Below, in pieces: positions 15,069 to 56,375 of a stretch of 64,000 nt of DNA. Location: the NCBI GenBank assembly GCA_016787725.1, contig JAEUTZ010000021.1, forward strand, positions 186,001 through 250,000, read 5' to 3'. A model generated the notes under the pieces. That model saw nothing but the letters and a program-made list of their open reading frames with translations. It searched no databases and was not told the origin of the DNA. Positions within the stretch are counted from its first letter, which is position 1. Each line of letters begins with the position of its first letter. The stretch comes from Cyclobacteriaceae bacterium. Lineage in GTDB: Bacteria > Bacteroidota > Bacteroidia > Cytophagales > Cyclobacteriaceae. The translations under genes were made by a program, and so were the position numbers.

Positions 15069-15872
15069 ATGATTTCCGTAGTGGGTATTCCATTCGATGC
15101 AGCTTCTTCGTTTTTGCGCGGTCCGGCCCAGGCACCGGCAACTATCCGGACGGCCTTTCACTCTGATTCATCCAACTACTTTACCGAAAGCGGGATAGAC
15201 CTTAAAAATCATCCGGGTTGGAAGGATGCAGGTGACATCACGCTGAGCATGGATCCTGTCCAATCAATTTATTCGGCTATCCAGATCTGGCTACAGCAGG
15301 GCCATCGCATGTTAACTATGGGTGGAGATCACTCCATCACTTATCCGGTAGTTAAAGCATTTCATGAGAAGTTTGGAAAGCTTTCCATCCTGCATTTGGA
15401 TGCGCATGCCGATCTGTATGATTTATTTGAGGGCAATCGCTATTCGCATGCTTGTCCGTTTGCACGAATTATGGAAGCGGGCCTCGCTTCGCGGTTGGTG
15501 CAGGTGGGAATCCGAACGTTGAATACCCATCAACGGGAGCAAGCCCAGCGTTTTGGAGTAGAGCTCATCGAAATGAAGAATTGGAATCCGGCAACGGTCT
15601 TTCAATTTTCGGGCCCCGTGTATTTGTCGTTGGACCTCGATGCAGTGGACCCGGCATTTGCTCCGGGAGTATCGCATCATGAGCCCGGTGGTTTTAGCAC
15701 GCGCGAAGTAATCTCCATTATCCAGAATCTGAAAGGCAATCTGGTAGGCGCTGATTTAGTAGAGTTCAATCCCACCCGCGACCCATCGGGCATTACGGCC
15801 ATGTTGGCCGCCAAATTATTTAAGGAATTGTTGGACCGGCTGCTTCAGTCCGATCAATTGCTACCGGCATGA
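15069..15872 (+). CDS. Agmatinase/arginase (ureohydrolase) family enzyme
   Basis: Binuclear-manganese ureohydrolase, 267 residues. The metal motifs are all present: GGDHS at 85-89, DAHAD at 111-115 and SLDLDAVDP at 187-195, and the C-terminal ADLVEFNP carries the family Glu. SpeB-like agmatinases split agmatine into putrescine and urea; length and motifs fit that group, but guanidinobutyrase or formimidoylglutamase activity cannot be excluded. The stop codon overlaps the start of the next gene by four bases (ATGA), implying translational coupling with a D-aminoacylase-like lipoprotein. Confidence 0.9.
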   Translation: MISVVGIPFDAASSFLRGPAQAPATIRTAFHSDSSNYFTESGIDLKNHPGWKDAGDITLSMDPVQSIYSAIQIWLQQGHRMLTMGGDHSITYPVVKAFHEKFGKLSILHLDAHADLYDLFEGNRYSHACPFARIMEAGLASRLVQVGIRTLNTHQREQAQRFGVELIEMKNWNPATVFQFSGPVYLSLDLDAVDPAFAPGVSHHEPGGFSTREVISIIQNLKGNLVGADLVEFNPTRDPSGITAMLAAKLFKELLDRLLQSDQLLPA

Positions 15873-17506
15873 GATTGCTGTTGCCCATTCTGTTGCTCTT
15901 ACTGCTTTCCTGTACAAAGCCGAGAGAATACGATATTATTATTCGAGATGGATTGATTTATGATGGCAGTGGCAACATTCCGGTTCGTGGTGACCTCGCC
16001 ATTCTCGGAGATACCCTTGCCGCCTTGGGTGATGTGGGGAATGCGATTGGAAAAAAGGAAGTGGATGCAAACGGGTTGGCAGTTGCCCCGGGGTTCATCA
16101 ACATGCTCAGTTGGGCCGATGGATCGTTACTAAAAGACGGTCGTTCCATGAGTGACCTCAAGCAAGGGGTTACTCTGGAAGTTTTTGGTGAAGGCTGGAG
16201 CCCCGGGCCGCGCAGGAAGAAAGATGCTCAGGACACCCTATGGACAACCCTGGGAGAATATTTTACAACGCTCGAGAAGAAAGGAGTGACACCCAACTTT
16301 GCATCGTTTGTAGGTGCCACCACCATCCGCAACTATGTGTTGGGATTTGAAGATCGAGCACCCAACGCCACCGAATTGGAACAAATGAAGCATCTGGTAG
16401 CCGAGGCAATGCAGGAAGGAGCGATGGGCCTGGGGTCGTCCCTGATTTATGCCCCGGCTGATTTTGCTTCCACGGAAGAACTCATTGCATTGTGCAAGGT
16501 TGTCTCTGACTACCATGGTATGTACATCACCCACATGCGCAGTGAAAGCGATAGGATACTTTCGGCCTTGAATGAAGTCTTTCAGATTGCCGCGGAGGCA
16601 AAGGTGCCGGCAGAGATTTATCATTTGAAAATCAACAATATGTGGAATTGGAATAAGGTTGATAGCGTACTCACAAAAATTGACAGCGCCCAAAAAGCAG
16701 GGTTGAAAATCACCGCCAACATGTACACCTACAATGCCAGTGGCACTTCGCTCTCGGCCCGGCTGCCTACCTGGGTGCAGGAAGGGGGTGGACCTGCGAT
16801 GCGGAAGCGCTTGCGTAATCCGGCCTTGCGCAAGCGGGTCTTGTACGAGTTGGAGATGGGCATCCCCACCAAAAATTCAGATCCAAAGGATGTGCTCCTG
16901 AATGATTTCTATCGGGATTCCCTCGATCAGTTATACCGCGGCAAACGACTGAATGAAGTTGCCCGCTTGCATGGAAAGAGTGCGAATGAGACCATGCTTG
17001 ATTTAATTGTGGCGGACCGGTCGGGGATCTCGGCTATCTTTTTTTTAATGTCGGAAGACAATGTGAAGCGTATGTTGCAGCAATCGTATGTTAGCATTTG
17101 CTCCGATGCCGGATCCATTGCCGATGAGGCACCGTATAACATCGATCCAACCCACCCACGGGCCTATGGCAGCTTTGCCCGCTTCCTCGGCAAGTATGTA
17201 CGGGACGAACAACTGATGCCATTGCAGGAGGGCATACGCAGAATGACCTCCTTACCGGCTTCGAATCTAAAATTGAGTAAACGCGGAAATCTGGCCGTGG
17301 GTAATTATGCCGATGTGGTTGTGTTTAATCCGGGAACCATTGCCGATAAAGCTACTTTTGATGATCCGCACCAATATGCGGAAGGCATGGTGCATGTGTT
17401 TGTTAACGGAGTACAAGTGTTGAACAACGGAGATCACACGGGTGCCCGGCCCGGCCGCTGCATACGCGGACCAGGGTGGGGTCAGTCTTCGACAGGCTCA
17501 GACTGA
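15869..17506 (+). CDS. D-aminoacylase-like amidohydrolase lipoprotein, copy 1
   Basis: Amidohydrolase of the N-acyl-D-amino-acid deacylase type, 545 residues, with a lipobox LLLSC (Cys15), so membrane-anchored. Canonical members have an HxH metal motif after APGFID; here the stretch is APGFINMLSWADGS, without either His, and the usual cysteine segment reads VFGEGWS. Later ligands remain: ITHMRSE, EIYHLK and a Ser-Asp (CSDAGS). The second copy at 20051 has the same changes. The C-terminus is odd: after the conserved GPGWG the last seven residues QSSTGSD and the stop codon are supplied by a palindromic repeat. Confidence 0.85.
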   Translation: MRLLLPILLLLLLSCTKPREYDIIIRDGLIYDGSGNIPVRGDLAILGDTLAALGDVGNAIGKKEVDANGLAVAPGFINMLSWADGSLLKDGRSMSDLKQGVTLEVFGEGWSPGPRRKKDAQDTLWTTLGEYFTTLEKKGVTPNFASFVGATTIRNYVLGFEDRAPNATELEQMKHLVAEAMQEGAMGLGSSLIYAPADFASTEELIALCKVVSDYHGMYITHMRSESDRILSALNEVFQIAAEAKVPAEIYHLKINNMWNWNKVDSVLTKIDSAQKAGLKITANMYTYNASGTSLSARLPTWVQEGGGPAMRKRLRNPALRKRVLYELEMGIPTKNSDPKDVLLNDFYRDSLDQLYRGKRLNEVARLHGKSANETMLDLIVADRSGISAIFFLMSEDNVKRMLQQSYVSICSDAGSIADEAPYNIDPTHPRAYGSFARFLGKYVRDEQLMPLQEGIRRMTSLPASNLKLSKRGNLAVGNYADVVVFNPGTIADKATFDDPHQYAEGMVHVFVNGVQVLNNGDHTGARPGRCIRGPGWGQSSTGSD

Positions 17507-17507
17507 C
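17481..17507 (+). repeat. 27-bp palindromic repeat A (forward)
   Basis: Arms GTCAGTCT and AGACTGAC enclose the core TCGACAGGCTC. It is identical to repeat C at 17880. It forms the 3' end of the D-aminoacylase gene and provides its stop codon. With repeat B, in inverse orientation 38 bases away, it makes a REPIN-like pair. Confidence 0.9.
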
Positions 17508-17545
17508 AAGTTTTGTATCGAAGTAGATAATTAATTTTGAAACCT

Positions 17546-17572
17546 GTCATGCTGAGCCTGTCGAAGTATGAC
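17546..17572 (-). repeat. 27-bp palindromic repeat B (reverse)
   Basis: Arms GTCATGCT and AGTATGAC with the same core as repeat A in inverse orientation (GAGCCTGTCGA). It overlaps the possible 5' end of the GIY-YIG gene: an ATG inside the repeat is in frame with it. Confidence 0.9.
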
Positions 17573-17584
17573 TTAGAGGATATC

Positions 17585-17905
17585 ATGGCAAGGGATCATA
17601 ACTATTTTGTCTATATAGCAGAATGTGCCGATGGCTTGTATTACACTGGTGTAACAAACAATTTAGATAGGCGATTGTATGAGCACAATGAAGGGATTGA
17701 TCCGAAGTGTTTTACTTATAGCAGGCGACCAGTACTTCTTCGCTATTGGCTACAGTTTACCGACATTAAACAAGCCATTGCATGGGAAAAGCAAATTAAG
17801 GGCTGGGGTCGTAAGAAGAAAGAGGCTCTTTTTAAAGAAAATTGGGAAGAGATTAAAGTATTGGCGAAGAACAAACAAAGTCAGTCTTCGACAGGCTCAG
17901 ACTGA
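17585..17905 (+). CDS. GIY-YIG nuclease, flanked by palindromic repeats
   Basis: Small GIY-YIG endonuclease, about 106 residues from ATG at 17585. VYIAECADGLYYTG carries the two signature strands, LDRRLYEHN the catalytic Arg and WEKQIKG the metal-binding Glu. The basic GWGRKKKEA stretch follows. Upstream in-frame starts (ATG at 17549, TTG at 17537) would add residues encoded by repeat B; ATG 17585 gives the usual N-terminus. At the 3' end the last residues QSSTGSD and the stop codon lie in repeat C, exactly as in the gene before it. Position between two inverted repeat pairs suggests a role in moving or processing them. Confidence 0.9.
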   Translation: MARDHNYFVYIAECADGLYYTGVTNNLDRRLYEHNEGIDPKCFTYSRRPVLLRYWLQFTDIKQAIAWEKQIKGWGRKKKEALFKENWEEIKVLAKNKQSQSSTGSD

Positions 17906-17906
17906 C
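17880..17906 (+). repeat. 27-bp palindromic repeat C (forward)
   Basis: Same sequence as repeat A. It encodes the C-terminal seven residues and stop codon of the GIY-YIG gene. It pairs with repeat D, which begins 39 bases later in inverse orientation, matching the A-B spacing of 38 bases. Confidence 0.9.
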
Positions 17907-17945
17907 AGGCTTCGTTACTTTAGACAAAACTATTTACAAGGTATT

Positions 17946-17992
17946 GTCATGCTGAGCCTGCGTCTCAGCAAGCAGGCTTGTCGAAGCATGAC
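17946..17992 (-). repeat. Palindromic repeat D (reverse, with inner insertion)
   Basis: Outer arms GTCATGCT and AGCATGAC match repeat B, but the loop is expanded to 47 bases in total by an insert of about 20 bases that contains its own inverted repeat (AGCCTGC with GCAGGCT). It ends 16 bases before the methyltransferase start. Confidence 0.85.
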
Positions 17993-18008: not shown

Positions 18009-18737
18009 ATGAAAGACCGCTTCTCCCACCACGCGCAACAATACGCACAATTCCGGCCGGTCTATCCAGACGCGTTCTATGCCTTTCTGTTTTCACACGT
18101 AACTAATTTTGATACTGCCTGGGACGCGGGCACAGGCAATGGGCAAGCCGCGCGCGTGTTGGCTACGCGATTTAAAAAAGTGTTGGCAACGGACATTAGT
18201 GCGAAACAATTAGAAAATGCCACACCCACAGAAAACATTGTTTATGCCGTGGGGGCCGAGACAACTTCCATGTCCGATCATTCCGTGGATCTTATTACGG
18301 TCGCCCAGGCCATTCACTGGTTCAACATTCCGGTGTTCTTCAACGAAGTTAAACGGGTAGCCAAGCCCGATGCGATAATAGCCGTGTGGGGGTATGGACT
18401 CTTGCAAATCAATCCTTCAATCGATCAGAAAATAGATCACTTCTATAAAAATGTCGTTGGTCCGTACTGGGATCCGGAACGCACGCTGATTGACAACCAC
18501 TATCGCACAATTCCCTTCCCATTTCAAGAGCTTGAGTCTCCGCCTTTATCATTTTCATTTCAATGGTCGCTGCAGCAACTAGAAGGGTATCTCAACACCT
18601 GGTCGGCTGTGCATAATTATATCGCTGCCAACCACGCCAACCCGGTGGAAACCCTGATAGCCCAACTACAGTCTAATTGGAGAGAGGCGCTACCAGTAGC
18701 ATTTCCAATGTTTCAAAGGATAGGCCGCATTAACTAG
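18009..18737 (+). CDS. Class I SAM-dependent methyltransferase
   Basis: A 242-residue Rossmann-fold methyltransferase of the UbiE/SmtA-like group. Motif I is WDAGTGNGQAARVL near residue 38, motif II is LATDIS, and the post-II region DLITVAQAIHWFN carries the AQAxHWF signature common in small-molecule methyltransferases. Motif III lies near IIAVWGYG. There is no signal peptide. The substrate is unknown. It starts 16 bases after repeat D, so its promoter may lie within the repeat cassette. Confidence 0.88.
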   Translation: MKDRFSHHAQQYAQFRPVYPDAFYAFLFSHVTNFDTAWDAGTGNGQAARVLATRFKKVLATDISAKQLENATPTENIVYAVGAETTSMSDHSVDLITVAQAIHWFNIPVFFNEVKRVAKPDAIIAVWGYGLLQINPSIDQKIDHFYKNVVGPYWDPERTLIDNHYRTIPFPFQELESPPLSFSFQWSLQQLEGYLNTWSAVHNYIAANHANPVETLIAQLQSNWREALPVAFPMFQRIGRIN

Positions 18738-20050: not shown

Positions 20051-21739
20051 ATGAAAAATCTACTTATCTCGCTGATCGTGCTCGTCCTCATTGCCGCGTG
20101 TCAAAAACAAAAATTCGAGGTTATTATTCGCGGTGGCACTGTATACGATGGCTCCGGTAAACCTGGGGTTGTAACTGATGTTGGCATCAATGCCGATACG
20201 ATTGCGGCCATCGGAGATCTTTCCAACGCCATCGCGGAAACCGAAATTGATGCGAAAGGCCTGGCCGTTGCCCCCGGCTTTATCAACATGCTGAGCTGGG
20301 CCACCGAATCCTTGATCATCGATGGCAACTCCCAGGCCGACATCCGGCAAGGAGTAACCCTCGAAGTATTTGGTGAAGGCATGAGCATGGGTCCGATGAA
20401 TGAAGCGATGAAGGCCGAACTGGCAAAGGAGATGAGGCGCAACCCCGATGGCAAATACGAAGTAGATTGGACAACCCTGGGGGAATATCTGGAGTCGCTG
20501 GAGCGCAGGGGCGTTGCCCCCAACGTTGCTTCCTTTATTGGTGCTACGAGTGTACGCATCCATGAACTGGGAAAAGCGAACCGCCTGCCCACTACTGCGG
20601 AAATGGAACGTATGAAAGCATTGGTAAAGCAAGCCATGGAAGAAGGGGCGATGGGTGTGGGCTCTTCTTTGATTTATGCTCCGGCCAACTATTCTTCGAC
20701 CGAGGAATTGATAGAACTCTGTAAAGTAGCGGGTGACTATGGAGGCATGTACATCACCCACATGCGCAGCGAAGGCAACAACATCTTTGGAGCGGTGAAT
20801 GAAACCATCCGCATTGCGCGGGAAGCAAAATTGCCGGCCGAAATCTATCACCTGAAAATGGCCGGCAAAGACAATTGGTGGAAACTCGATTCTGTACTGA
20901 ACCTGATTGAGGCTGCGAACAAGGAAGGCTTGAAGATCACCGCAGATATGTATACCTATCCGGCCGGAGCCACCGGGTTGGATGCGTCCATGCCGCCCTG
21001 GGTGCAGGAGGGTGGAATGAAAGAATGGATCAAGCGCCTGCAAAACCCTGCCATCCGAAAGAAAGCTCTCGATGAAATGCGCAAGCCCTCTGATAAATGG
21101 GAGAACCTGCTGTTGATGGCCGGGAGCCCCGACCGGGTTCTGTTGCTAGGATTTGCCAACGATTCATTGAAACAGTTTACTGGAAAGACATTGGCAGAAG
21201 TGGCGAAAGTTTATGGTAAGAGCCCGGAGGAGACAGCCATGGATCTGGTAATTGCCGACAGCACGCGGGTAAGTACTGCGTATTTTATGATGAGCGAAGA
21301 AAATATCAAACGGCAGATTGCCCTGCCGTATCTGAGTTTTGGTTCGGATGCTGAATCACCGGCTACCGAAGGTATATTTCTAAAATCGAGTACGCATCCG
21401 AGAGCCTATGGCAATTTCGCACGGTTGCTGGGGAAATATGTGCGGGAGGAGAAGGTGATCACACTGGAAGAGGCGATTCGCAAGCTTACTTCGCTACCGG
21501 CTTCGAATTTGAACATTCAAAAACGCGGACTTCTTGCGCCCGGATACTATGCCGATGTGGCCATCTTCGATCCGGAAAAAATTCAGGATCATGCCACGTT
21601 TGAAAAACCCCATCAGTATAGTACGGGCATGGTGCATGTATTGGTGAATGGTACAGCCGTACTGAAGGAGGGCGAGCATACCGGGGCCCGCCCGGGTCGT
21701 GTGGTGCGTGGACCCGGATGGAAAAAGCAGCTACCGTAA
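20051..21739 (+). CDS. D-aminoacylase-like amidohydrolase lipoprotein, copy 2
   Basis: Paralogue of the protein encoded at 15869, 562 residues, with a lipobox LIAAC (Cys17). The metal-site segment is again APGFINMLSWATES, without HxH, and the cysteine segment is VFGEGMS. ITHMRSE, EIYHLKMAG and FGSDAES keep the later His, His and Asp. The C-terminus RPGRVVRGPGWKKQLP shows what the natural end looks like where copy 1 has repeat-encoded residues. Its likely role is hydrolysis or processing of N-acyl amino acids or cyclic amides in the periplasm, with an altered metal centre. Confidence 0.85.
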   Translation: MKNLLISLIVLVLIAACQKQKFEVIIRGGTVYDGSGKPGVVTDVGINADTIAAIGDLSNAIAETEIDAKGLAVAPGFINMLSWATESLIIDGNSQADIRQGVTLEVFGEGMSMGPMNEAMKAELAKEMRRNPDGKYEVDWTTLGEYLESLERRGVAPNVASFIGATSVRIHELGKANRLPTTAEMERMKALVKQAMEEGAMGVGSSLIYAPANYSSTEELIELCKVAGDYGGMYITHMRSEGNNIFGAVNETIRIAREAKLPAEIYHLKMAGKDNWWKLDSVLNLIEAANKEGLKITADMYTYPAGATGLDASMPPWVQEGGMKEWIKRLQNPAIRKKALDEMRKPSDKWENLLLMAGSPDRVLLLGFANDSLKQFTGKTLAEVAKVYGKSPEETAMDLVIADSTRVSTAYFMMSEENIKRQIALPYLSFGSDAESPATEGIFLKSSTHPRAYGNFARLLGKYVREEKVITLEEAIRKLTSLPASNLNIQKRGLLAPGYYADVAIFDPEKIQDHATFEKPHQYSTGMVHVLVNGTAVLKEGEHTGARPGRVVRGPGWKKQLP

Positions 21740-56124: not shown

Positions 56125-56151
56125 GTCATATTTCGACAATTTCAATATGAC
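56125..56151 (+). repeat. 27-bp palindromic repeat G (forward, degenerate)
   Basis: Arms GTCATATT and AATATGAC, with core TCGACAATTTC. The length is 27 like repeats A to C, and the core TCGACA is kept, while the GGC part has changed. It is the forward partner of repeat E, 99 bases away. Confidence 0.75.
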
Positions 56152-56250: not shown

Positions 56251-56277
56251 GTCATGTTGAGCCTGTCGAAACATGAC
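56251..56277 (-). repeat. 27-bp palindromic repeat E (reverse)
   Basis: Arms GTCATGTT and AACATGAC with the inverse core GAGCCTGTCGA, as in repeat B at 17546. It lies in the long spacer between the glycosyltransferase and TonB-plug genes. Confidence 0.9.
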
Positions 56278-56290
56278 CTGAAAGATACCT

Positions 56291-56375
56291 GTCATGTTGA
56301 GTTTACCTGCCGAATCCGCCAGGCGGAGTAGGCAGGCCTGCCTATCGGCAGACAGGCTTTTTGAAACATAAATGA
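56291..56375 (-). repeat. Palindromic repeat F (reverse, with large inner insertion)
   Basis: It starts GTCATGTTGAG like repeat E and ends with GAAACATAAATGA, but about 55 bases of nested GC-rich palindromes (CCGCCAGGCGG, GGCAGGCCTGCC) lie inside. It is built like repeat D, the last element of the other cluster. It ends about 19 bases before the start of the next gene. Confidence 0.75.

Follow-up and report, generated by a model that had tools for sequence, protein, structure and literature searches.

Short palindromic repeats bracket a small gene for a GIY-YIG nuclease in a Cyclobacteriaceae bacterium, and the pairing of this type of nuclease with repeats is general among its relatives. We consider it probable, with some reservation, that a REP/REPIN family has this nuclease as its partner enzyme, in the role that RAYT, to which it is unrelated, plays elsewhere; the nuclease would most likely cut its own repeats. 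The observations behind this proposal are an inward bracketing of the gene by repeats, covariation in the repeat stems, a match between repeat type and nuclease clade, genes that stay fixed while their repeats change in two genera, and one empty site.

The window, the whole stretch of DNA analysed here, comprises 64,000 nucleotides. Its nuclease gene (Table 1), which the preliminary description had recognized as a small GIY-YIG gene between repeats, indeed encodes a protein with a match to Pfam PF01541 (E 6e-17). This is the sole match; the Y1 transposase domain PF01797 is absent, and because of this absence the window system, judged by domain content, is not a member of RAYT. NCBIfam gave no match for the window nuclease. 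Among solved chains, its sequence matches BH0048 (1zg2; E 9.7e-22) and EF2693 (1ywl; E 1.1e-17), both UPF0213 GIY-YIG proteins. Other matches to the window nuclease (P0001) within its own genome are weak (next best E 5e-5 and 9e-5).

The element is flanked by an amidohydrolase gene (15869-17506) on one side and a methyltransferase gene (18009-18737) on the other. Repeat A contains the stop codon of the amidohydrolase (17504-17506) and repeat C that of the nuclease (17903-17905), with the result that the two proteins share the C-terminal residues QSSTGSD. A second, paralogous amidohydrolase gene (20051-21739) ends differently, in GPGWKKQLP, so repeat A probably replaced the original end of the upstream amidohydrolase. 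The two paralogous genes stand close together around the nuclease element.

Table 1. Nuclease gene and palindromic repeats in the window (positions are those of the window)
Feature	Position	Strand	Description	Basis
GIY-YIG nuclease gene	17585..17905	+	106 aa, single-domain; final residues and stop encoded by repeat C	
Repeat A	17481..17507	-	27-bp palindrome, GTCAGT-CTTCGACAGGCTCAG-ACTGAC as read on +	sequence, fold, ORF end
Repeat B	17546..17572	+	27 bp, GTCATG-CTGAGCCTGTCGAAG-TATGAC; nearest upstream repeat, directed at the gene	sequence, fold
Repeat C	17880..17906	-	27 bp, exactly equal to A; nearest downstream repeat, directed at the gene	sequence, fold
Repeat D	17946..17992	+	47 nt, B-type, second hairpin inserted in the core	sequence, fold
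Intact dispersed family copy	56251..56277	+	nuclease not nearby	sequence, core scan
Degenerate family copy	56125..56151	-		by eye
Interrupted, degenerate family copy	56291..56370, end approximate	+		by eye

Repeats A and B upstream of the gene and C and D downstream of it follow an identical order, and B (+) and C (-) flank the gene as inverted repeats. The spacers given in the preliminary description, 38 nt between A and B and 39 nt between C and D, agree with our count from the sequence; its characterization of all four repeats as 27-bp palindromes holds for A, B and C, and fails for the longer, hairpin-interrupted D. Repeats A and C each fold into an 8-bp stem (-5.3 kcal/mol, z -2.1). A and B jointly form one long hairpin (-25.1 kcal/mol, z -8.5), C and D two separate ones (-20.8 kcal/mol, z -3.0), and the region of repeat D (17945-17992) reaches -14.4 kcal/mol (z -4.2). 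The 14-base core, with at most two mismatches, has four sites in the window against 0.26 expected, a number reached in none of 100 shuffles. In the whole genome we counted eight exact cores and none of the reversed pattern, so the anticipated excess of repeats is present and modest. The family also occurs at 56.1-56.4 kb, as one intact and two degenerate or interrupted copies (by eye), and none of the GIY-YIG matches of the genome lies at this group, as had been described.

We scanned GTDB genomes with an alignment of relatives, which yielded at least 565 confirmed candidates, and kept the best 80. These are mostly from Bacteroidota, with others from Nitrospinota, Chlorobiota, Ignavibacteriota, Kiritimatiellota, Campylobacterota, and Pseudomonadota. 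A first motif, CTGAGCN{2,6}YCGAAG, lies within 700 bp of the gene in 56 of these 80 relatives and is absent there in 24. Its density among the best 80 is 3.57/kb at 0-250 bp from the gene, falls through 0.66, 0.22, 0.06, 0.03 and 0.03/kb in the next bins, the last values being those for 2-10 kb (0.029/kb at 5-10 kb); the reversed-pattern control gave 0 in every distance bin. On inspection, most of the 24 loci lacking the first motif proved to carry variations on a single design, such as TTCGAGTG...TATCGAGAA, CTCGAGCGGAGTCGAGA, and GGTGAGC...CGAACC (78 of the 80 loci were used in this inspection step). We distinguish five repeat types, three of them defined only after inspecting the loci without the first motif, and at least one of the five lies within 400 bp in 82 of 90 loci (the best 80 plus 10 from the order). 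When loci at shared sites are merged, 59 of the 80 remain, one per site: the first motif is found at 36, any type within 400 bp at 54, and repeats on both sides at 36. The prediction that genes of this clade are usually flanked by repeats is thus borne out.

A motif-free test, which scores the similarity between the two 300-bp flanks of a gene, found a repeat common to both flanks in 47 of the 76 loci, out of 80, whose contigs were long enough (in 36 of 55 when each site is counted once), in none of 70 pairs of far flanks (70 of 80, again because of short contigs), in 8 of 14 testable loci among 19 weaker GIY-YIG relatives, in 13 of 32 RAYT loci used as a positive control, and in none of 17 UvrC-like control loci. 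Most of the sequence in the far flanks and the UvrC-like controls is coding, which flatters the contrast; the RAYT loci offer a fairer comparison. A strict hairpin scan (stem of at least 5 bp, hence missing shorter stems) detected hairpins within 500 bp at 49 of the 80 loci and at no locus of four controls. One genome (G045) holds 117 exact cores and a nuclease gene between two repeat pairs, with an aspartate in place of the near-invariant G22; two of its three RAYT loci were fetched, and neither has a core.

The orientation of the repeats is also regular. Counting all five types in the best 80, the nearest upstream core is on the plus strand in 58 of 66 loci and the nearest downstream core on the minus strand in 46 of 58, with cores on both sides of the gene in 50 of 80. 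The design is a 5'-GTCA head, two variable base pairs, and CTGAGC-N3/4-TCGAAG closing a hairpin; in the window the head stands 5' of the stem, as it also does in many relatives when these are judged by eye. At 86 sites of the first type, positions -1/+1 and -2/+2 are paired in 98% and 92% of cases (30% and 34% in shuffles), and all four Watson-Crick pairs are used at -1/+1. The corresponding values at 66 sites of the second type are 94% and 74% (33% and 42%). Outside the core, pairing beyond position 2 does not rise above shuffles.

The type of repeat goes with the nuclease. When six repeat groups, "none" included, are placed on a 90-protein tree (95 columns, with many weak forks), 20 changes are required, against a mean of 46.5 when shuffled and with none of 200 shuffles as low, a figure to which near-copies contribute. 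Two such genes occur in Epilithonimonas mollis; they fall in separate parts of the tree, and each has its own repeat type. Y10, Y20, R30, and H34 are invariant in all 90 aligned rows and E68 is present in 89; we take these to be the catalytic residues of GIY-YIG. Together, the density of cores, their inward orientation, the covariation of the stems, the motif-free flanks and the agreement of type with tree lend good support, as an association, to the idea that a GIY-YIG nuclease stands in the place of RAYT.

In several genera the gene stays in one place. Flanking DNA reveals a common site within Flavobacterium (five loci), Chryseobacterium/Elizabethkingia (five), Nitrospinota (three), and Pedobacter and its kin (eight, one labelled Flavobacteriaceae; for two of them only the downstream side could be compared). 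The two groups that were aligned, Flavobacterium and Pedobacter, show repeats that vary between species in number and position at the common site. The gene of Elizabethkingia (L169) occupies the site seen in Chryseobacterium and is not the sister of the gene there on the weakly resolved tree. Two Dyadobacter loci (L118, L149) show the gene inverted with respect to the flanking DNA.

At the window locus itself we found no empty site, the nearest amidohydrolase orthologs having different downstream genes and so allowing no clean comparison; the check that had been suggested gave its one clean result in relatives. A REP-gene-REP unit of about 380 bp lies between genes for a RidA-like protein and an aldehyde dehydrogenase in Flavivirga (L141) and behind that dehydrogenase gene in Yeosuana (L172; gene names by eye). 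Where Flavivirga is filled, Yeosuana has a clean empty site, repeat-free by eye; in the other direction a further gene obscures the comparison, and no target-site duplication of the kind expected from an insertion sequence with inverted ends is evident by eye at this one site. The unit has probably moved, with independent arrival as an alternative.

Genome-wide counts give a looser picture. In 392 genomes of the phylum Bacteroidota, a broad pattern gave a median of 12.5 cores in the 76 genomes with a nuclease of the clade versus 3 in the 316 without one (0/2000 family-stratified permutations), and the reversed pattern averaged 0.6 and 0.9. Clade genes were defined by E at most 1e-25, with at most 12 candidates scored per genome, and RAYT by E at most 1e-14. 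In a joint model of core count, the nuclease (0.68, t 4.6) and RAYT (0.52, t 4.7) predict about equally well, so a role of RAYT is compatible with the genome counts alone. Copy number, expected to track the nuclease, does so only loosely, and RAYT correlates to about the same degree. There are exceptions on both sides: 16 of the 76 clade genomes have at most 3 cores and 25 of the 316 others at least 20. Two genomes with 115 and 88 cores (G209, G204) have a clade gene whose fetched locus is without a core. Another, G100, has 84 exact cores, no match to the window nuclease, and a single short GIY-YIG gene without a core nearby. The GIY-YIG genes found in G195, a genome with 225 cores, are all long, and Y1_Tnp has no match in it; its first 400 kb (L293-L312) contains 15 cores, 12 of them as six (+,-) pairs 43-44 bp apart. 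No partner gene was found in this genome, and the partner may have been lost. In repeat-rich genomes without the clade, 1 of 20 further small GIY-YIG loci that were fetched has a repeat, and weaker relatives in three genomes (G012, G501, G456) have a core nearby (L238, L226, L218).

The correlation of RAYT with core count is one reason to consider that the repeats belong to RAYT transposases and that the nuclease merely accompanies them. One genome (G350) that lacks a clade nuclease adds to it, with RAYT loci about 108 bp (L208) and about 830 bp (L191, cut at the contig start) from a core. At the level of loci, however, the picture differs. Y1_Tnp gave 103 matches in 30 genomes, and among the 42 fetched as loci (34 strong, 8 weak) only L208 has a core within 700 bp, against 56 of 80 nuclease loci. 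By eye (25 loci), the flanks of RAYT often carry other hairpins, and 13 of 32 RAYT loci share a repeat between their flanks. Y1_Tnp matches the window genome twice, both times weakly; the match that was fetched (L068) has no core nearby. As the type of repeat moreover tracks the nuclease tree, we regard ownership by RAYT as improbable; of the possibility raised earlier that a RAYT gene elsewhere explains the repeats, the genome-wide correlation survives and the local association does not.

GIY-YIG proteins are classic homing endonucleases, and a selfish endonuclease of this kind could have been copied by homologous repair into cut repeats that another agent had made. Such an insertion into a repeat pair predicts what is seen in the window, where the pair A,B recurs as C,D around the gene, and it would fit the absence of the gene from some repeat-rich genomes. 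The one clean empty site, however, is without a repeat by eye, which argues that the REP-gene-REP unit arrived together with its repeats, and four groups keep the gene at one site across species rather than at other repeats. We consider homing unlikely, though less so than ownership by RAYT. A host-maintenance role, in which the nuclease would only trim repeat hairpins or resolve them, with no spreading, would agree with the conserved catalytic residues of the enzyme and with the sites common to members of a genus, but it leaves the inward bracketing and the moved unit unaccounted for, and we give it as little credence as RAYT ownership. Under the partner-enzyme reading, which we favour, the nuclease would most likely recognize repeats of its own type in hairpin form, which it would nick or cut; host repair or copying would then spread repeats and repeat pairs; and the gene between two inward repeats would be mostly stationary, yet able to move as a REP-gene-REP unit.

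Published accounts of RAYT and REPs (Nunvar 2010, PMC2817692; Bertels and Rainey 2011, PMC3116915) present RAYT as the enzyme family tied to REPs and describe inverted REPs flanking the gene, repeats in inverted pairs, a four-base 5' head GT(A/G)G before a palindrome with a non-complementary middle in which complementary changes are kept, and orthologous genes that hold their position. Our system shares the inverted flanking repeats, the repeat pairs, the headed palindrome with its non-complementary middle, and the compensating changes; orthologous genes in place with varying flanking repeats are likewise shared, as seen in relatives of the window gene. It differs in its head, GTCA, and in its enzyme, which carries the GIY-YIG domain (PF01541) where RAYT has the Y1 tyrosine transposase domain (PF01797). 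With GIY-YIG homing endonucleases it shares the catalytic domain and the conserved Y, Y, R, H, and E; unlike them, it is free-standing, very short, and usually bracketed by repeats, and its clean empty site is repeat-free. We know of no REP-linked enzyme family other than RAYT. Among the open-access PMC matches listed, none connects a GIY-YIG nuclease with REP-like repeats in its title or in the opening of its abstract, and GIY is not mentioned in PMC3686654. A 12-base piece of the core occurs in four open-access PMC texts whose titles concern fish, limb development, Listeria, and kiwifruit; longer pieces have no occurrence in open-access PMC text.

The window genome contains other small GIY-YIG genes. 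Five genes or remnants (L010, L011, L013, L016, and L017, on contigs C27, C15, C9, and C22) lie about 50 bp or less from a tRNA gene predicted by ARAGORN: L010, L016, and L017 behind the 3' end, L011 before the 5' end, and L013 between two tRNA-Leu genes. Several of these loci have, by eye, a partial, hairpin-interrupted tRNA copy on the opposite side. These features suggest a related group inserting at tRNA genes. L015 and L016 stand at the ends of contigs C8 and C9, which by eye share about 50 bp within a GIY-YIG gene; given this overlap, the two pieces are probably a single tRNA-linked copy. A further small gene (L012, G000:C15:279908-280120) is found by eye amid copies of a different repeat, GGATCCCCCAATAGGAGTCG.

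Relatives are also present on phages (23 records) and plasmids (19 records), all below 60% identity. We viewed eight of these 42; in six, palindromic repeats can be seen by eye to either side of the gene: two from Methylobacterium, one from Sphingomonas with the second core type, and those from Planktothrix, Sinorhizobium, and Spirosoma, the last from Bacteroidota and the least clear. In a Subdoligranulum plasmid and a Rhizobium phage, no palindromic repeats flanking the gene were seen by eye. The motif-free flank score passes four of the eight. On the Planktothrix plasmid (L317), the repeat-flanked gene lies between genes for an MmeI-type restriction enzyme and the DISARM protein drmA. The Sinorhizobium plasmid (L318) has long direct repeats with a palindrome on both sides of the gene, which are reminiscent of the rhizobial intergenic mosaic elements.

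More tentatively, and at somewhat less than even chances, GIY-YIG nucleases may define another class of REP/REPIN systems, independent of RAYT and extending across phyla, from which several short palindromic repeats, widespread in Bacteroidota, Alphaproteobacteria, and Cyanobacteria and so far without a known origin, would derive. REPs are widespread among bacteria. If the proposed partnership is true, two unrelated enzymes would share one gene-repeat anatomy, which would then have arisen more than once, and orphan repeats would gain a candidate source. The spreading of REPs would also become testable with a protein of 106 aa and a hairpin of 27 bases.
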